The position numbers were made by a program, and so were the translations under genes. A stretch of 64,000 bases of DNA from contig DASVBS010000074.1 in assembly GCA_036375715.1 (NCBI GenBank), forward strand, positions 1 to 64,000. The letters run 5' to 3'. The notes under the pieces are model-generated. The model worked only from the letters and a program-made list of their open reading frames with translations, was not told the DNA's origin and ran no database searches. Origin of the DNA: Longimicrobiaceae bacterium (GTDB taxonomy: Bacteria > Gemmatimonadota > Gemmatimonadetes > Longimicrobiales > Longimicrobiaceae). Positions 49,034 through 58,201 of this stretch are shown piece by piece (position 1 is the first letter of the stretch; each line of letters begins with the position of its first letter).

Positions 49034-50254
49034 TCAGCGGCCGGTCGCCGAACGCCGGGCGCCGCCGGTGTAGATCTGCAGTCCCAGCTCGGTCCGCTCC
49101 CCCGCCGGCGAGGTACGGATGAAAGGCCGCAGCAAAGGGCCTCCGGTAGTCAGGGCGCCGGCGCCACTCGCCGGTGGCCCGTCGACGCGCGAGCGCGCGT
49201 ACAGGTAAGCCTCCAGCGCTCCCGCCACGGCAATTCCCGCCGCCGCGGCAATCCCCGGGACGAGATAGGTCCGCTCACGGGCCACCACCTCGTACTCGTA
49301 CGGGTTGCCGAAAGGATCCTGCGCAGTTCTCGTCTGGGTGACCTCCTGTTCCCTCAAACCCCACCATAGAGCGGCTGCCGTTCCCCCCAGAACGGCCAGG
49401 CCGGCCACCGGCCGCCGGGTCAGCTGCTGTCCCAGGCCAGGCACGACGAGTCCTCCCGCCAGTGCGGTGACCGCGGAGGTGGTGTTAGCCCGTCGAGTAG
49501 CTTCCGAGGCCCGGAGTGAATCCGCGAAGGCCTGCACCAGCTGCCGGTCTGCCGAGCTGGGGACCAGCTCCAAATAGCGATCCAGGTCGGCGACGGCATC
49601 CGCCACCTGCCCGGCCGCGGCGCGGGCGAGGGCCCGGTTGTAATGGGCCGCGGCCCAGGTCGGGCGCCGTTCGATCACGTTGCTGAAGGCGCGCACGGCC
49701 GCGGAGTATCGCTGTCCCTCGAGCGCCTCGAGACCGGCGCGGACCATGGCGGCCACCTCGTCTCGGTCGTCGCCCTGGGCGTTGGAGAGCAGCTGCCGCA
49801 TCCGTTCGCGAACGACGGGGAGCTCGGATCCGTTGGGAGCTACTCGCAGGTACTTGCAGTACTCCTCCGCGGCGCGATCGAGCTCTCCGCGTTCCTCGTA
49901 GATGCGTGCCAGTCGGTAAGCGATGATCGGATTACCCGGGTCGAGTCGGGCGGCGCGCTCGAGCGCGTCCGCCGCGGCCTCCTGGTCGCCGAGGATCGCG
50001 GCCTCGGTGCCCAGGGTCAGCAGGGAGTCGACCGCCGCCAGCGAGGGGGTGTTGATCAGGGAAGGGACGGGTGCGGGACGGCACAGCTCGAGCGGATCCG
50101 GCTCCAGGGCGGTCTTCGGGGTGAGTGTCTGCCCGTGGAGCGGCGGCGCCGCTTCCAGGCTGGCGAAGAGCATTGCCGCAAGGGCCGCATAGCGAGGCAG
50201 CGATCCCATCCGACCGCTCGGTCGGTGCGCTGGCACCGCTGTGTGGAGCAGCAT
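49034..50254 (-). CDS. TPR-repeat membrane/secreted protein
   Basis: A protein of 406 residues from ATG 50254 (or 391 from ATG 50209, which gives a tidier signal peptide starting MGSLPRYAALAAMLF). TPR motifs are seen around ALGDQEAAADALERAARLDPGNPIIAYRLARIY, ELDRAAEEYCKYL and RAFSNVIERRPTWAAAHYNRALARA. The C-terminal half has hydrophobic segments (ALAGGLVVPGLGQQLTRRPVAGLAVLGG and LVPGIAAAAGIAVAGALEAYL), like TM2/DUF5683-type proteins. It is the last gene of the kinase-BIG2-TPR operon, eight bases after the BIG2 stop, and could be a scaffold or substrate for the kinase. Confidence 0.8.
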   Translation of the reverse strand: MLLHTAVPAHRPSGRMGSLPRYAALAAMLFASLEAAPPLHGQTLTPKTALEPDPLELCRPAPVPSLINTPSLAAVDSLLTLGTEAAILGDQEAAADALERAARLDPGNPIIAYRLARIYEERGELDRAAEEYCKYLRVAPNGSELPVVRERMRQLLSNAQGDDRDEVAAMVRAGLEALEGQRYSAAVRAFSNVIERRPTWAAAHYNRALARAAAGQVADAVADLDRYLELVPSSADRQLVQAFADSLRASEATRRANTTSAVTALAGGLVVPGLGQQLTRRPVAGLAVLGGTAAALWWGLREQEVTQTRTAQDPFGNPYEYEVVARERTYLVPGIAAAAGIAVAGALEAYLYARSRVDGPPASGAGALTTGGPLLRPFIRTSPAGERTELGLQIYTGGARRSATGR

Positions 50255-50262
50255 GGTTCGGA

Positions 50263-51909
50263 TCAGTCCCGCATGGCTCGGAAGACCACTCGATTCACCC
50301 CTTCGACGGAAGCCCAGGCGGCCCAGAACAGGTCCAGCCCTCCCCCCAACGTCCAGGTCGAGGTGGCGAGTCCCTCCTCGTCTGTGACAGTTGTTTCCGG
50401 GTCCATCGATCCGGTGGTCGTGCTCCACTCCACCGTCACGCGCGGCACCGGGTCCCCGTCCAGATCCACAACGCGTACGACGAGCGGATCCTCCAACGAC
50501 TCACCGCTGTTGCCCTCCTGGTTGTTCCCGCTCACGATCTCGATTCGCGCAGGCCTGCCGAATACCTGTACTTCGGCAGTCGCCTCCTGCCCTTCGCTGC
50601 GGGCAACGATCTCGGCCTTGCCCTTGGCGACGGCGGTGACCTCGCCCTCGTCGTCGACGACCGCCACCGACTCGTCACTGCTTTCCCACTCGACCTCCCG
50701 GTCGGTCAGCACCGTTCCATCCTCTGCCCTCAGCGTTGCCTGGATGTCCGCGGACTCGCCGATCGCGAGCTCGAGCGAGGTAGGATCCAGCTCGATGCTG
50801 TGTACGGGTGGGGGAACGACCGTGACCCTGGCGCTTCCCTCATGTCCCTCGCTGCGAGCGGTGATGACGGTCTCACCCGGACGGCGTCCCGTGACGACGC
50901 CGTCGCGGTCGACCTGGGCAGTGCGGGAATCTTCACTTTTCCACTCGACCTTCCGGTCGGTCAGCACCACCCCGTTCGCCGCTCGCACGATCGCCTCCAG
51001 CGTGAGCGATGCCCCCACCACTATCTCGACCTCATCCGGTTCCACCTCGACGCTTCCGACCTCCAGGTCTTCCACGGAAACCTGGGCGGCCCCGCTCTTC
51101 CCTTCGCTGGTCGCGGTGATCGTAGCGCTCCCCGCGCGCACCGCCGTCACAAGCCCTCGTTTGTCCACCCGCGCGACCCTCTCGTCGCTGCTGCTCCACT
51201 CCACGTCCCGGCCGCTCAGCACCGCGCCGTCTTCGGAGCGCGTGATCGCTTCGAGCTGTTGCGTCTCCCCGACAATGAGCTCCAACGACTCTGGGGTGAT
51301 CTCTACGGAAGCAACCGGCTGGGGACCGACCGCCACGCCAGCGCTGCCGCTCCGTCCATCGATCGTGGCGACCACCTCGGCGGCTCCGAGCCGGAGTGCC
51401 TTGGCCAGCCCTTCGCTGGAAACGGAGACCACCTCCGGATCCGAGCTGGACCACTCCACCGACTCGACGTCGAGCTCGTTCCCGTCCTCGTCCAGGGCGC
51501 GCGCCTCGAACTGCCGTTCCTGCCCCACCAGGAGCGCGACCGACGCCGGCAGGACCTGCACGCGGTGGGGGCGGCGATTCTGCACTACGATCGTCGCGAT
51601 GCTGCTGACTCCATTGGCGCTGGCTGCCACCCGGACCGTTCCGGGAGCCCTTCCGAGCACTTCGCCGTTTTCCGAGACGGTGGCGATGAGCGTGTCCTCG
51701 CTGGACCAGAACAGCCTGGCGTCGCTGACAGGATTCGATTCCGGGTCGAGCACGGTCGCCTGCAGCTGCACGGTCGCTCCGACCGTCACCACCGCCTGAT
51801 CCGGTTCGATGCTGAGTGCCCCGATCTCTTGCCGCGCGGTTTCGGAAGGGGAGTCGCAGGAAACCAGTAGCCCGAGCACGATCGCAAGAGCGGCGCGCAC
51901 AGGGTTCAC
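50263..51909 (-). CDS. Lipoprotein with five BIG2 Ig-like domains
   Basis: A 548-residue cell-surface or periplasmic protein. The lipobox LLVSC places Cys18 at the mature N-terminus. Five tandem bacterial Ig-like (BIG2) domains of about 83 residues follow (starting near residues 30, 113, 198, 283 and 366), each with the pattern L..W.S.D...V..G.VT....G...ITA. A final Big_1-like domain lies at about 455-545. Such repeats usually act as stalks or adhesins. It starts two bases after the kinase stop, so it is coexpressed with the kinase. Confidence 0.88.
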   Translation of the reverse strand: MNPVRAALAIVLGLLVSCDSPSETARQEIGALSIEPDQAVVTVGATVQLQATVLDPESNPVSDARLFWSSEDTLIATVSENGEVLGRAPGTVRVAASANGVSSIATIVVQNRRPHRVQVLPASVALLVGQERQFEARALDEDGNELDVESVEWSSSDPEVVSVSSEGLAKALRLGAAEVVATIDGRSGSAGVAVGPQPVASVEITPESLELIVGETQQLEAITRSEDGAVLSGRDVEWSSSDERVARVDKRGLVTAVRAGSATITATSEGKSGAAQVSVEDLEVGSVEVEPDEVEIVVGASLTLEAIVRAANGVVLTDRKVEWKSEDSRTAQVDRDGVVTGRRPGETVITARSEGHEGSARVTVVPPPVHSIELDPTSLELAIGESADIQATLRAEDGTVLTDREVEWESSDESVAVVDDEGEVTAVAKGKAEIVARSEGQEATAEVQVFGRPARIEIVSGNNQEGNSGESLEDPLVVRVVDLDGDPVPRVTVEWSTTTGSMDPETTVTDEEGLATSTWTLGGGLDLFWAAWASVEGVNRVVFRAMRD

Positions 51910-51911
51910 GG

Positions 51912-54884
51912 CTAACCTCCGGGAATCGTTTCAACGGGGGTGGGGACCGTCCGGTGAACCAGCGTTCCGTCCCCGAGTTGGCCCTCGATGTTGTAGCCCC
52001 AGCAATACCGCTGGCCATCGGTGCCCAGAGCGCAGGTGTGAGATCCGCTGGCCAGCACGGCAGTGAAGCCGACCTCGGAATGGACAAAGACCGGCTCGAG
52101 ACGGGGGGTCGTACTGGCGTCCCCGAGCTGGCCGTAGTTGTTCTGGCCCCAGCAGTAGGCGCTGCGATCCTCGGCGATGCCGCAGGTATGGCGGCCCCCG
52201 GCGCTGACCTGCACGAACCGTAGCGAGGTCGGGAGTCGAAGGGGGACCAGGCTGTCCCCACTGCCACCATCACCCAACCTCCCGTCCGCTCCCTGACCCC
52301 AGCAGAAGACCTCCCCCTCGAGCGTCAGGCCACAGGTGTGCGCGCTGCCGGCCGTAAGCGCGCGGAAACGGTGGCCACCCGCGACGGGAACGGGGCGAAC
52401 ACGGGAAACCACCGTGCCATCCCCGAGCTGTCCGTTGTTGTTGCGGCCCCAGCAGAACGCCTCTCCACGGGAGTTCAGCGCGCAGGTATGATTCCAGCCC
52501 GCGGCGATGCCGACGAAGCGCTCGGTGGTTTCCACCGGAGTCGGAACTGCCCGCGCGCCGTCGCCGCCGATCCCGAGCTGTCCGTAGGAATCGGACCCCC
52601 AGCAGAAGGCGCGCCCATCGAGCGCGATGCCGCAACTGTGGGCGGAACCCAACGCGAGTGCAGCGAACCGGCGGTTGGCGATGCGCCGTAGCCCGGTGAC
52701 CGGCCCCACCGTTCCGGCACCGAGCTGACCGTGCCGGTTGTCGCCCCAGCAATAGGCGGTCCCCTGGCCGTCCAGGATGCACGAGTGGAAGCTCCCGGCA
52801 GAAACGGAGCGCGGGCGCACGTTGATCTCCATCCGTCGAGGCGACGGAGTGCGCGGTCGGCCTCCCGGGCCGAGCTGCCCCCGTTCATTGCCTCCCCAGC
52901 ACGCGAGGATCCCTGCCTCGATCGCGCAGGTGTGCATACCTCCCACCGCCAGCGACCAGCCATCCCGGACGAGGGGCAGGTCGGGCACTGCGCCTTCGGG
53001 CTCGGACTCGTCCGCCTCCGCTTCGGCTGCTTCCTCCTCGGATTCAGTCGCATCCGAGGAGTCGGTGGCTGCCGGTGAATCGGTGGACTCCGCAGCCGCG
53101 ACGTCGGCCTCGCCCGCTTCGGCGTCGGCTCCGCCCTCGCCGGCGTCGTCCGATTCGTCGGTGCTGATCGCGGTGGCCGGCAGGGCGGGCTGCACCCGCG
53201 TCATCCACTCGCGTTCGATGTCCGGCGCCCCCGCCCCGCCCGCTGCACCGCCCGCACCGGTCGATCCATTCGGGCCGCTCGGGCCGCTCGTGGCGCCGGG
53301 GCCCCCAGTGCTGCCGCCGCGCTCGGCGGTGGCTTCGACGCCCGCAGGTCCCGACTGCTCGGACTGTTCGCCCGTCGCGACCATGGCGAGGCGCTCCGCC
53401 TGCTCCGAGACCTGCTCCCACGCCGGTGCGATCAGGCGTTCGGCGGGCTCGGCTATGGGGGGCCATCCCAGATGCCACGCCGTCCCGGCGGAAGCGAGCG
53501 CGACAAAGACCAGACAGAGGATCGCGGCTGCGGCCCTCCGGCGACGGCGAGCCATCGACTTCGCGCGGCGGGTGGGCACGATCGCCGGACGAGGCCCGGT
53601 GACCGGCGCCCCTGCAAGTACCATTGCTGGACGACGCGCGGGGCCCGGGGCTCCTCCAACGACCGCGGCTGGACGGGGCCCGAGCGCCGACGCCTCGGCG
53701 GACCCGGTCGCCGGGCTGGCTGCAGGGACCGGCGTCTCCCCGGGCACGAAGCGCACGGTGGGAGCAGTCGCCGGGTCCTGTGCAAACGGAGTGACTTCTC
53801 TTGCGAGCGCCTTGTCTTCTCGCGACGGCGAAGGAGGAGCGCTCATCACCTCCTGTCTACGCTCGCGGCGCAGCCAGGAGAAGCGCGGCGACCGGCCCTC
53901 GAGGGCGGCCATGAACTCCGCGACGTCGGCCCAACGCTCGTCCGGCTCTTTCGCCAGCGCTCGCTTCACCGCCAGGGATACCGACTTCGGAATGTCAGGG
54001 CGCAGCTTGCGGAGGGAGGGAAGCTGCTCTTCCCTCTGCTTGCGGATGACGTTGTAGAGGCTCTCCCCCTCCCACGGCGCCCGACCGCTCAACATCTCCC
54101 AGGCGACCAGTCCCAGCGCGTATTGATCGCTGCGTGCGTCCAGCGCCCCACCCTCGAACTGCTCGGGGGCCATGTAGGCCGGCGTTCCGATCACCGACCC
54201 GGTGTGTGTAATCCGAGTCGTGTCGTCGAGCGGTACGGCGATGCCGAAATCGGCGAGCAGCGCGCGCCCCGTGGTGGCGTGCAGGAAGATGTTTTGCGGC
54301 TTGATGTCGCGGTGGATGATCCCCTGGCTGTGCGCGGCGATCAGCGCCTCGCCGACGTCGCGGAGGATCTCCATGGCCCGATCGAGGGGGAGCGGCCCCT
54401 CCTCCCGGACCAGGTCGCGGAGGGTGCGGCCCGGGATGTACTCCATGATCAGGGCCAGCCCGCCGTCGGTCAGCTTCTTGACTCCGTAGATGGAGACGAC
54501 GCGCGGGTGCTTGAGGTTGGCCACCAGGCGGGCCTCCCGCGTGAAGCGGGCGAGGCTCTCCTCGTCGGCGGAGGCGGTCGGGTGCAGCACCTTGATTGCC
54601 ACCTGACGGCCCAGAAGAATGTCGCGAGCCCGGTAGACCGAGGAGGTCCCCCCCCGCCCGAGCTCATCGACGATCTCGAATTCCTCGAGACCTTCGACGA
54701 TGTACGCTGCCGGACGATATCCGGCCACGCGGGCCGCTCGCTCGCTCGCGAACCAGCGCCGCTCGCCGGCGGGCACGTTGCGAGCGGCCGGTGAATCCGC
54801 GGGGTGATAGACCTCGCCTTTCGAAGACGCGACGAAGCCGCCCGAAGGCGGTGTCTCCGTCGTTTCCAGCATATCTGGGCCCAT
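51912..54884 (-). CDS. Membrane Ser/Thr protein kinase with external seven-repeat RCC1 propeller
   Basis: A 990-residue bacterial PKN2-type kinase. Residues 25-60 resemble the Ada/zinc-binding fold (VYH...WFASERAARVAGYRPA) but lack its cysteines. The kinase domain is at about 70-330: GRGGTSSVYRA, Lys98 in VAIKV, catalytic HRDIKPQN (Asp193), DFG (Asp212) and GTPAYMAPEQ, so all key residues are present. One transmembrane helix (450-468) follows a basic stretch. A long Ser/Glu/Ala-rich linker leads to seven RCC1 repeats (645-985), each with H-[ST]-C...CWG cysteine pairs that suggest an external disulfide-braced propeller. It heads the operon with the BIG2 and TPR genes. The ligand and targets are unknown. 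Confidence 0.93.
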   Translation of the reverse strand: MGPDMLETTETPPSGGFVASSKGEVYHPADSPAARNVPAGERRWFASERAARVAGYRPAAYIVEGLEEFEIVDELGRGGTSSVYRARDILLGRQVAIKVLHPTASADEESLARFTREARLVANLKHPRVVSIYGVKKLTDGGLALIMEYIPGRTLRDLVREEGPLPLDRAMEILRDVGEALIAAHSQGIIHRDIKPQNIFLHATTGRALLADFGIAVPLDDTTRITHTGSVIGTPAYMAPEQFEGGALDARSDQYALGLVAWEMLSGRAPWEGESLYNVIRKQREEQLPSLRKLRPDIPKSVSLAVKRALAKEPDERWADVAEFMAALEGRSPRFSWLRRERRQEVMSAPPSPSREDKALAREVTPFAQDPATAPTVRFVPGETPVPAASPATGSAEASALGPRPAAVVGGAPGPARRPAMVLAGAPVTGPRPAIVPTRRAKSMARRRRRAAAAILCLVFVALASAGTAWHLGWPPIAEPAERLIAPAWEQVSEQAERLAMVATGEQSEQSGPAGVEATAERGGSTGGPGATSGPSGPNGSTGAGGAAGGAGAPDIEREWMTRVQPALPATAISTDESDDAGEGGADAEAGEADVAAAESTDSPAATDSSDATESEEEAAEAEADESEPEGAVPDLPLVRDGWSLAVGGMHTCAIEAGILACWGGNERGQLGPGGRPRTPSPRRMEINVRPRSVSAGSFHSCILDGQGTAYCWGDNRHGQLGAGTVGPVTGLRRIANRRFAALALGSAHSCGIALDGRAFCWGSDSYGQLGIGGDGARAVPTPVETTERFVGIAAGWNHTCALNSRGEAFCWGRNNNGQLGDGTVVSRVRPVPVAGGHRFRALTAGSAHTCGLTLEGEVFCWGQGADGRLGDGGSGDSLVPLRLPTSLRFVQVSAGGRHTCGIAEDRSAYCWGQNNYGQLGDASTTPRLEPVFVHSEVGFTAVLASGSHTCALGTDGQRYCWGYNIEGQLGDGTLVHRTVPTPVETIPGG

Positions 54885-55199
54885 ATCGCTTCACCGGAGA
54901 ACGTGCCGGGCGGTCGAAAGTAGCGCGCCTCCCGGAAGATGCCCTGTGCCACCCCCCGCCGCCTCGCCCTAGCCAGGAACCCTGACCCCACCCTCGTACC
55001 CCTCACCCGACCCAGCCCCGCATCGGTGGCTCCAGTTCCGACAGGGCGTCCGCTCGTGACGCGGTCCTGGCGCGCTTCGTCTACCCAGGCGGGCCATCGT
55101 CCTGACCGGGGTCGGCGCGAGGGCACGCGAGCTCTGGCATTGCCGCGCGCGAGTACAACTCTTTCCTCGGCCGCCCTCCTATCCGCAGTTCGTGACTCG
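54885..55199. other. Divergent gene-free region between the RCC1 kinase and the beta-helix gene
   Basis: 315 bases. An open frame runs through it in phase with the beta-helix gene from 54939, but the residues are low-complexity and no signal or domain appears before residue MTGTVKHRYR. No clear promoter is seen. It must hold those for both genes. Confidence 0.4.
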
Positions 55200-56384
55200 A
55201 TGACAGGAACCGTGAAGCATCGCTATCGCATCGCCGGGCTGGTGGCCCTTTTCGCGCTGATTGCCGGTGTCGCCCTGGTTGTCAGTCTCCGTACCAGGAA
55301 TCGGCTCGAACCCCCGCTGGAACCGGGCCAACCGTCTGTTGGCGCAGAATCACCCCGTCGCGCGGATCTCCCCGCTGCGTCGGAATCGGCAGCGCCGGCC
55401 GCGGAAGCCCCGGCGCCGGCGGCTGAGTCCACTTCGGAACCGACAACCGAGTTGCCGGCAACCGAGCCCTCGGAAACAGAGCCACTGGGAACCGCTTCCG
55501 GCCCCCGGGCGGCTAACCGGATCGACGTGTATCCCGGCGACGACCTCGTCACCATCGTGAACACCGCTCCGGAGGGGAGCTTCATCTTCCTGCACGGCCT
55601 CCCCGACGGAAGCGGATACACCTACGACATCGGCGACCGCGTGCTCACGCTGCCGAACGGCGCCACCATCCGTGGCCCCGATGCTACCCGCGGCCCCCGG
55701 GGAGAGATCGACGCGCCCGTGAAGATCCGCGGTAGCGGTCCGCAGATCTTCAATCAGCAGAACCGCTCGGGCTGGACTATCGAGCACCTCGACATCAGTG
55801 GCGCCCGCTTCGTCTCCGACCAGAATCAGGACGGCGTCGCGATCAACCGCGGCCGAGGTACCGTGCGCTTCGTCAAGATCCACGGCAACGACAACAAGGG
55901 CCTCGGCGGCTGGTCTGGGACACTGGAGTACAGCGAGCTCACCGACAATTCCGCCGCACGCATCCCCGGCCACAGTGCCGCGAGCAAGTCGATCTACGTT
56001 CACTCCATTCGCCACTCCTACATCCATCACAACCACTTCCACGGCCTCTGGACCGACTGCGACAACCCGGGGTGGCGGGTCGAGGACAACGTGGTCAGCG
56101 ACAACTTCGGGACCGGGGTTTTCAACGAGATCTCACGCGGCCCGTCCGTGATCGCGCGCAACCTCATCGTGCGCAACAATCAGGGAAACGTCGAAGGACG
56201 GGCCGGCCTCGTCGTGACCTCCAGCAAGAACGTCGAGATTCACGACAACGTCATTCACTCCAACGGCCGGGAGGACGTCCGCATCTGGGAGGACCACCGT
56301 GCCGGCAACGGGCCGGCCAGGTGCCGCTCCGGGTATCGGACCGAGAAGGTGTTGCTGCGGGCGAACGCCATCGGGCGTCCGTAG
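55200..56384 (+). CDS. Membrane-anchored parallel beta-helix protein
   Basis: A 394-residue protein with a short basic N-terminus and one transmembrane helix (IAGLVALFALIAGVALVVSL, residues 11-30). An Ala/Pro/Glu/Thr-rich linker runs to about residue 105. The rest is a right-handed parallel beta-helix of the polysaccharide lyase/pectate lyase-like type, with coils such as FIFLHGLPDGSG, WTIEHLDISGARF, GVAINRGRG, SYIHHNHFHGLWTDCDN, NVVSDNFGTGVFNEIS and NVEIHDNVIHSNG. No catalytic Lys/Arg set of a known lyase is obvious. It may be a surface glycan-binding or -cleaving protein. It lies between two RCC1-protein genes. Confidence 0.82.
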   Translation: MTGTVKHRYRIAGLVALFALIAGVALVVSLRTRNRLEPPLEPGQPSVGAESPRRADLPAASESAAPAAEAPAPAAESTSEPTTELPATEPSETEPLGTASGPRAANRIDVYPGDDLVTIVNTAPEGSFIFLHGLPDGSGYTYDIGDRVLTLPNGATIRGPDATRGPRGEIDAPVKIRGSGPQIFNQQNRSGWTIEHLDISGARFVSDQNQDGVAINRGRGTVRFVKIHGNDNKGLGGWSGTLEYSELTDNSAARIPGHSAASKSIYVHSIRHSYIHHNHFHGLWTDCDNPGWRVEDNVVSDNFGTGVFNEISRGPSVIARNLIVRNNQGNVEGRAGLVVTSSKNVEIHDNVIHSNGREDVRIWEDHRAGNGPARCRSGYRTEKVLLRANAIGRP

Positions 56385-56442: not shown

Positions 56443-57651
56443 TCACTCGGACTCGAACTTCACCAGGTGCGGGACCAGCGCGTTGGTCCGGTCTCCCGTC
56501 CCGACCTGTCCGTGTCCGTTGTAGCCCCAGCAGAGGACCTCGCCCGAGGTGGTTACGCCGCAGGTGTGATCCCAGCCCAGGCTGAGGTTCTTGAAGTCGT
56601 GGGCATCGCTCACCTGCACAGGCGGGGTGAACTCGCCTTCCTCGACGTCGGCGTTGCCGAGTTGCCCGCGCTTGCTGTCACCCCAGCACCACGCTTCGCC
56701 GCCCGGTGTGAGGGCGCAGGAATGGTCTCCTCCTGCCGCGATCCGATCCATGGCAGGAACGTCCGGCACCACCATCGGCGTCAAGAACACATTGCGGGAC
56801 ACCGTCTGCCCCGACTGGTTGTGCCAGTTGTCGCCCCAGCAGTAGGCACGGTTGTCCGTTGAGATCGCGCAGGTGTGATTCTGCCCCGCCGAGGCAATCA
56901 TCGGTCCAGAGGTCTTGAAGGTGACGTCGGTCTTCACCTGGACCGGGGTATTCTTTGCCGTCCGGGTGTTGTCACCGAGCTGGCCGCTGGCGTTCTTGCC
57001 CCAGCAGTAGGCGCCTCCGTCGCCGGTGATCCCGCAGGTGTGCTCGTAGCCGGCAAAGAGGGCCACGAAGGTGTGCCCGCCCGAAACCTGAACTGGCTCC
57101 ACCGCGTTGGTGTTGGAGCCGTTCCCGAGCTGGCCCTTGGCGTTCAGGCCCCAGCAATAGGCCTCGCCGCTCTCGCTCAGGCCGCAGGTATGGCTCTCGC
57201 CTGCGGTCAGAGCCTGGAAGTGGTGCCCACCCGCGACCTCGGCCGGTGTGCTGGAACCCTCCGTGCCCCCGTTGCCGAGCTGACCCGCCTCATTGTCCCC
57301 CCAGCAGTAGGCCTCTCCGTCGGTGGTCAGTCCGCAAGTGTGACTGCCGCCGCCCACCAGCTGCTCGAACCGGAGGTCGCCGTGCACGGTCACTGGCAGG
57401 ATGCGATTGAAGGTCGTTCCGTCGCCGAGCTGTCCCGAGGGGCGATTGTAGCCCCAGCAGAAAGCCACTCCGTCGCTAGCGACCGCACAGCTGTGATAGT
57501 AGCCCGCCGCGGTTGACTCGAATGTGGACGGCGAAGTCGGATCGGGTTCGGTAATGCCATCGGAGCTGTCCTCACACGCAGCGACGCCGACGGCGATCAG
57601 ACAGAGCGCCGTGAGGTTCCGATAGCGGGTGAGCCAAGTCATCGTGACCAT
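56443..57651 (-). CDS. RCC1-repeat lipoprotein
   Basis: A 402-residue surface lipoprotein (lipobox ending at Cys26) with seven RCC1 repeats, each again with the H-[ST]-C...CWG cysteine pair (for example SHTCGL...YCWG). Its propeller resembles the external domain of the nearby kinase but is a separate protein without a kinase. GGAG lies six bases before the ATG at 57651. It converges with the beta-helix gene (58 bases between stops). Possible roles are ligand capture for the kinase or competition with its sensor; both are conjectural. Confidence 0.87.
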   Translation of the reverse strand: MVTMTWLTRYRNLTALCLIAVGVAACEDSSDGITEPDPTSPSTFESTAAGYYHSCAVASDGVAFCWGYNRPSGQLGDGTTFNRILPVTVHGDLRFEQLVGGGSHTCGLTTDGEAYCWGDNEAGQLGNGGTEGSSTPAEVAGGHHFQALTAGESHTCGLSESGEAYCWGLNAKGQLGNGSNTNAVEPVQVSGGHTFVALFAGYEHTCGITGDGGAYCWGKNASGQLGDNTRTAKNTPVQVKTDVTFKTSGPMIASAGQNHTCAISTDNRAYCWGDNWHNQSGQTVSRNVFLTPMVVPDVPAMDRIAAGGDHSCALTPGGEAWCWGDSKRGQLGNADVEEGEFTPPVQVSDAHDFKNLSLGWDHTCGVTTSGEVLCWGYNGHGQVGTGDRTNALVPHLVKFESE

Positions 57652-58201
57652 CACTTTCTCCGGGCTCGGGTCGCAGGAATGGCTCAACAGGACGCCTCGG
57701 GACCCCGGCACACCCCATCCACGCCGAGCCCCGTGGCTCAATGAGCATAGACGACCCATTCCGGGACCGGGTCACAACCGGAACGCTCCAATCGATCGCC
57801 CGCCGACCGCCGCAGGCCTCCTTCTGACACCATTCGCCGACACCCCCCGCCATCACGTGTTTTCGGGTGCGAATGCGACGCAGGCCCGGCTTTCCCGCCG
57901 TGCGGAAGGGCTGGAACCATCTTTTACGTGTCAATTCCATGCGAACAAAGGATGTGACCTGACCTCTCACTCCATCGTCTTAGCGGTCAGTCGGCCGGGC
58001 TGAGCGGTCTCGGCCGCTGCGTCGTTTTTCTCCATCCCCGCGGTTTGACGGCGCGGGAGCGAGGGTGGTTGCGGTTGTGGAGCGGGCCGACTGCACGGCG
58101 GCGATGATCGCCAGCGGGCCGCGTGGAGATGGCGGCAGTCCCGCAGCAGTGCGGGATTCGGTGTTCCGAACCGGGAAGGCCCGGTTCCGTGTTCGATCGT
58201 G
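57652..58201. other. 550-base divergent region with a two-hairpin leader before the exopolysaccharide cluster
   Basis: No convincing gene is present. Just before the priming transferase there are two perfect hairpins: TCCCGCA-GCAG-TGCGGGA (58139-58156) and GAACCGGG-AAGG-CCCGGTTC (58168-58187), the second ending 14 bases before the ATG at 58202. No Shine-Dalgarno is visible, so the hairpins may control ribosome access. No clear promoter can be named. Confidence 0.5.

Follow-up and report, generated by a model that had tools for sequence, protein, structure and literature searches.

What would a bacterial kinase read with an RCC1 propeller placed outside the cytoplasm? The question is raised by a gene of a Longimicrobiaceae bacterium (contig DASVBS010000074.1, 51912..54884 of the window, i.e., the whole 64,000-nucleotide stretch of DNA that was analysed), which lies on the (-) strand, as do all features given below unless marked otherwise. 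It encodes a kinase-TM-RCC1 receptor kinase of 990 aa, recognised from its open reading frame and Pfam matches, from a paralogue in the same genome and from a family of 32 proteins. A preceding sequence-only reading had described an intact kinase, one transmembrane (TM) helix and seven RCC1 repeats, each with an H-[ST]-C...CWG cysteine pair, and the Pfam, motif and hydropathy analyses recovered all of these. The architecture is well supported; the ligand and the output are what we infer.

Domain architecture and predicted topology

The Hanks-type kinase domain occupies residues 69–318 (53931..54680; Pfam PF00069, E 3.5e-47) and its motifs are intact, including the Gly loop, VAIK (K98), HRD (HRDIKPQN), DFG and APE, with Thr/Ser in the activation segment. 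The nearest solved structure in the PDB is that of mycobacterial PknB (E about 5e-55), and the domain looks active and of the PknB type. As is characteristic of Hanks-type receptor kinases, the catalytic domain is complete and hydropathy places a single TM helix before the C-terminal sensor. The relationship to PknB and the single-pass layout are shared with the PASTA kinases, including StkP and Stk1, but Pfam found no PASTA domain in the window protein and the NCBIfam model PknB_PASTA (NF033483) scored 305 bits against a cut-off of 450, so identity as a PASTA kinase was rejected.

The kinase domain is preceded by an N-terminal extension of 66 aa (54687..54884), which has a similar counterpart in the own-genome paralogue (L021) and not in other family members. 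The extension may resemble a short motif known from nucleases and from Ada proteins; an assignment of this kind was discarded, since Pfam and PDB searches at E values up to 10 gave no match. Scanning for promoter and terminator consensus sequences gave no hits.

Hydropathy and charge define the single TM helix at residues 451–470 (53475..53534), Arg-rich on the kinase side and followed by a low-complexity linker of about 160 aa (52995..53474), visible in the sequence, that leads to the propeller. Since nine Lys/Arg residues are found among the 20 residues before this helix and one among the 20 after it, following the positive-inside pattern, the kinase is predicted to be cytoplasmic and the RCC1 propeller to lie outside the cytoplasm. 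The same bias was present in 24 of the 32 relatives, not in all, with TM segments and topology assigned by hydropathy only.

Pfam searches, modelling, Foldseek and alignment agree on a seven-bladed RCC1 propeller with seven Cys pairs as the ectodomain (residues 631–990, 51915..52994); the Pfam match comprises seven RCC1 repeats at about residues 640–990 (E 2.7e-63). The H-[ST]-C...CWG pair is found in all seven blades (Cys 653/662, 702/712, 751/761, 801/811, 851/861, 901/911 and 951/961), with the spacing C(X8)CWG in blade 1 and C(X9)CWG in the others. AlphaFold2 modelling of residues 631–990, using six aligned sequences, yielded 27 strands with a mean pLDDT of 91.7 and a pTM of 0.90, bearing out the seven-bladed propeller that the sequence-only reading had anticipated. 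A Foldseek search of the PDB indicated that UVR8 is the closest structure (TM-score 0.92, rmsd about 1.4 Å), followed by HERC2, RPGR, RCC1 and then the ectodomain of plant CR4 (7a0k, E 3e-17), while a sequence profile search with the propeller found ACR4 (7a0j, E 8e-23) and BLIP-II (E 3e-17). In the model each Cys pair faces across one β-hairpin, as judged from strand boundaries and not from distances; e.g., strands 70–75 and 79–84 hold Cys 72 and Cys 82 of the ectodomain. Such an arrangement would suit a hairpin disulfide. The RCC1 domain is thus modelled as a rigid seven-bladed propeller, with one predicted hairpin disulfide per blade that would have a stabilising role in an oxidising compartment.

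The loss of the Cys pairs in close homologues, named by the sequence-only reading as the observation that would tell against it, was not seen: the pairs hold across the 32 kinase-RCC1 proteins. Their alignment shows no variation at 12 of the 14 ectodomain cysteines, and the remaining two are present in at least 90%; exactly 14 ectodomain cysteines were counted in 30 of the 32 proteins, and 12 in L169 and L180, whose stretches, as cut for counting, stop short of the first blade. Topology, model and conservation together support the prediction of an external propeller braced by its cysteines.

Distribution of the family and its gene cassette

The own genome encodes 15 kinases, two of which carry RCC1 repeats, the window gene and the paralogue on contig C85, which has the same layout and 49% identity to the window protein. 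Because of this paralogue and 30 further examples, the kinase-TM-RCC1 layout is neither a chance arrangement nor a one-off. RCC1 repeats occur in 210 of the 298 genomes of the phylum searched, and the search of other genomes for the architecture, which had been suggested from the sequence, returned, from long RCC1 frames, at least 32 proteins with this layout in 29 genomes of the Gemmatimonadota (28 from the sample of 298 and L052, a Gemmatimonadetes MAG whose protein nests among the kinase-RCC1 proteins in the tree). None of the kinases listed for 13 genomes that bear RCC1 repeats in other phyla lay in the same open frame as one of the listed repeats. In archaea of Candidatus Poseidoniaceae (L054 and L062), open frames containing 16–17 or more RCC1 motifs extend over about 3,500 residues.

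Directly downstream of the window kinase, 2 bases past its stop codon, starts a gene for a lipoprotein (50263..51909) whose lipobox is LVSC and whose Ig-like domains comprise five of the Big_2 and one of the Big_1 type, and this is followed by a gene for a TPR protein with one or more C-terminal hydrophobic segments (49034..50254; the start is uncertain, 50254 or 50212). The own genome carries this cassette twice, the paralogue locus having both partner families in swapped order. A Big_2 and/or a TPR homologue lies directly downstream on the same strand in 21 of the 32 kinase-RCC1 genes, and both do so in 16; counted over informative genes only, the cassette is kept in 21 of 28, there being little downstream sequence in L052, L146 and L170, and L179_b being a second copy cut by a contig end. 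This second copy lies just past the cassette of the first. In L179, two kinase-RCC1 genes flank a single Big_2–TPR pair. In G298 the kinase-RCC1 gene is split over two contig ends and is then followed by both partners. As a control, 20 loci with another kinase of this family at their centre contained neither partner, and in the own genome no Big_2 match occurs in the 5 kb around any of the 13 other kinases.

Cassette and non-cassette members are separated by only four changes on the tree, and families f1, f2, f3 and f5 all have the cassette; the small number of changes is consistent with an early origin of the cassette and its subsequent loss in some members. The distance matrices of kinase, propeller and TPR protein correlate (r 0.76–0.84), as would be expected for joint inheritance, and vertical descent alone would give the same picture. 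That these two partner genes recur beside the kinase-propeller gene in many relatives suggests that the three form a signalling module not described before. The sequence-only reading had left out the cassette partners, along with the 66-aa extension and the linker of about 160 residues, and the conserved neighbours are the best lead to a ligand.

The Ig-like protein of the cassette varies widely in length, with open frames of about 550 to more than 2,300 aa (L021, 8380–12342; L147, L168, L173 and L177), and some cassettes (L152, L163, L173 and L181) contain two or three Ig-like genes. On the other side of the window kinase, its divergent neighbour (54939–56384, (+) strand) encodes a right-handed β-helix protein (Pfam Beta_helix) with an N-terminal hydrophobic segment. 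Beyond this gene, about 1.6 kb from the start of the kinase gene, lies a separate RCC1 lipoprotein gene (56443–57759, (-) strand), whose product has a lipobox-like VAAC and Cys-paired repeats and no kinase.

What the propeller may read

RCC1-like propellers are known protein binders, with Ran, COP1 and β-lactamase among their partners. The reading that we prefer, and to which as a whole we give slightly less than an even chance, is that of an extracytoplasmic receptor kinase of the PknB type, with a propeller that probably senses the Ig-like lipoprotein of the cassette and with clustering-driven signalling on the envelope state. The propeller would bind a protein partner, most likely the lipoprotein encoded directly downstream, and the TPR membrane protein may act as a membrane scaffold that helps to hold or assemble that partner. 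Binding or release would change the clustering of the receptor and with it the trans-autophosphorylation of the kinase on its activation loop, by analogy with PknB and PknD, and in this way the kinase would relay the condition of the envelope to substrates in the cytoplasm.

No cassette follows seven of the kinase-RCC1 genes for which 5 kb or more of sequence is available downstream (L150, L166, L169, L172, L174, L176 and L180), so the cassette partner is not obligatory, and it is because kinase and propeller are kept in such members that direct binding of an external or cell-wall ligand (a glycan, peptide or small molecule) is the main rival; the lipoprotein and the TPR protein would then be kinase-controlled outputs or envelope structures and not the ligand. 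PASTA receptor kinases sense wall fragments in this way, having no co-encoded protein partner. Some residues are also conserved in single blades across the kinase-RCC1 proteins, including a Trp that precedes the first Cys in blade 4 alone (76%), Tyr, Arg and Asp in blade 6 and Arg in blade 7; these residues of blades 4, 6 and 7 may form one conserved face, a candidate binding face. Against this stands a cassette that is frequent, adjacent and specific to the kinase-RCC1 type, and we regard a direct external ligand as possible but doubtful.

A redox switch, in which kinase activity would depend on whether the propeller is oxidised or reduced in the periplasm, could be proposed from the distribution of cysteines, since the 14 nearly invariant blade cysteines are all those of the ectodomain, whereas the kinase domain of the window protein has none (mean 0.4 across the family) and the one further Cys lies in the TM helix. 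The corresponding pairs of plant CR4 have been read as stabilising (PMC4617170). Equivalent pairs are present in RCC1 proteins that have no kinase, among them the lipoprotein at 56443–57759, L068 and L069 (judged on aligned examples only), and for this reason the Cys pairs look structural; their identical form in seven blades, with no odd Cys, also fits bracing. As the main role of the pairs, a redox switch was accordingly lowered to a very unlikely explanation. Least credible of all is a cytoplasmic RCC1 part working as an exchange-factor or chromatin-like module, as RCC1 itself does in its capacity as a RanGEF and chromatin binder, with the hydrophobic segment not being a TM helix: the predicted topology puts the propeller outside, which removes what the sequence-only reading had named as its other possible refutation, a TM-like segment separates kinase and propeller in 32 of 32 family members (hydropathy >1.6 in 30 of 32), the blade cysteines are confined to the propeller and the co-encoded partner is a lipoprotein.

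Relation to known propeller proteins and kinases

The closest parallel is found in plants. CRINKLY4/ACR4 (7a0j, 7a0k) likewise joins a Ser/Thr kinase across the membrane to an RCC1-like ectodomain of seven blades; the core C(X~10)CWG of its seven crinkly repeats has been proposed to make stabilising disulfides on the outside of the cell, and the RCC1 and BLIP-II templates lack such regularly spaced cysteines (PMC4617170). The order of domains is reversed, with the ectodomain N-terminal and the kinase C-terminal in the plant protein and the kinase N-terminal in the bacterial one; the bacterial ectodomain ends at the last blade, without the TNFR-like Cys-rich domain, its blades are of about 50 residues compared to about 39 in CRINKLY4/ACR4, its kinase is PknB-like and belongs to another kinase family, and the conserved gene cassette is a bacterial feature. 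Although the seven repeats are present, membership in the CRINKLY4 family is ruled out by the reversed order and the missing TNFR-like domain. The novelty implied by the sequence-only reading was overstated to the extent that it missed this precedent, as well as the Cys pairs of secreted RCC1 proteins free of a kinase; its statement that no ligand has been described stands, and searches of the open-access literature did not turn up a bacterial RCC1 kinase, which is weak evidence of absence.

Among bacterial kinases, PknD of M. tuberculosis has the same plan of an N-terminal Hanks kinase, one TM helix and an extracytoplasmic propeller, but its sensor is six-bladed (PMC2877116), formed by NHL blades, in contrast to the seven Cys-paired RCC1 blades of the window protein. 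A PknD-type NHL kinase was rejected, since Pfam gave no NHL match and seven RCC1 repeats instead. RCC1 is not mentioned in the 2010 survey of prokaryotic kinase domains (PMC2877116). UVR8, RCC1 and HERC2 share the seven-bladed fold, but are eukaryotic and without this TM-kinase layout, while BLIP-II of Streptomyces, also a bacterial secreted RCC1-like propeller, is a soluble β-lactamase inhibitor with no kinase.

Taken in its widest form, the finding would be an undescribed three-gene receptor system of the Gemmatimonadota, whose kinase, with a CRINKLY4-like propeller design that arose separately from that of plants, would sense a stalk formed by the Ig-like lipoprotein of the cassette, with the TPR protein as a membrane partner; we put this forward tentatively. 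Known ligands are rare among bacterial receptor kinases, and here a conserved neighbour gene offers a concrete candidate ligand. The protein would also provide a bacterial counterpart to plant CRINKLY4, with the same type of sensor outside the cell on Ser/Thr kinases of opposite domain order.
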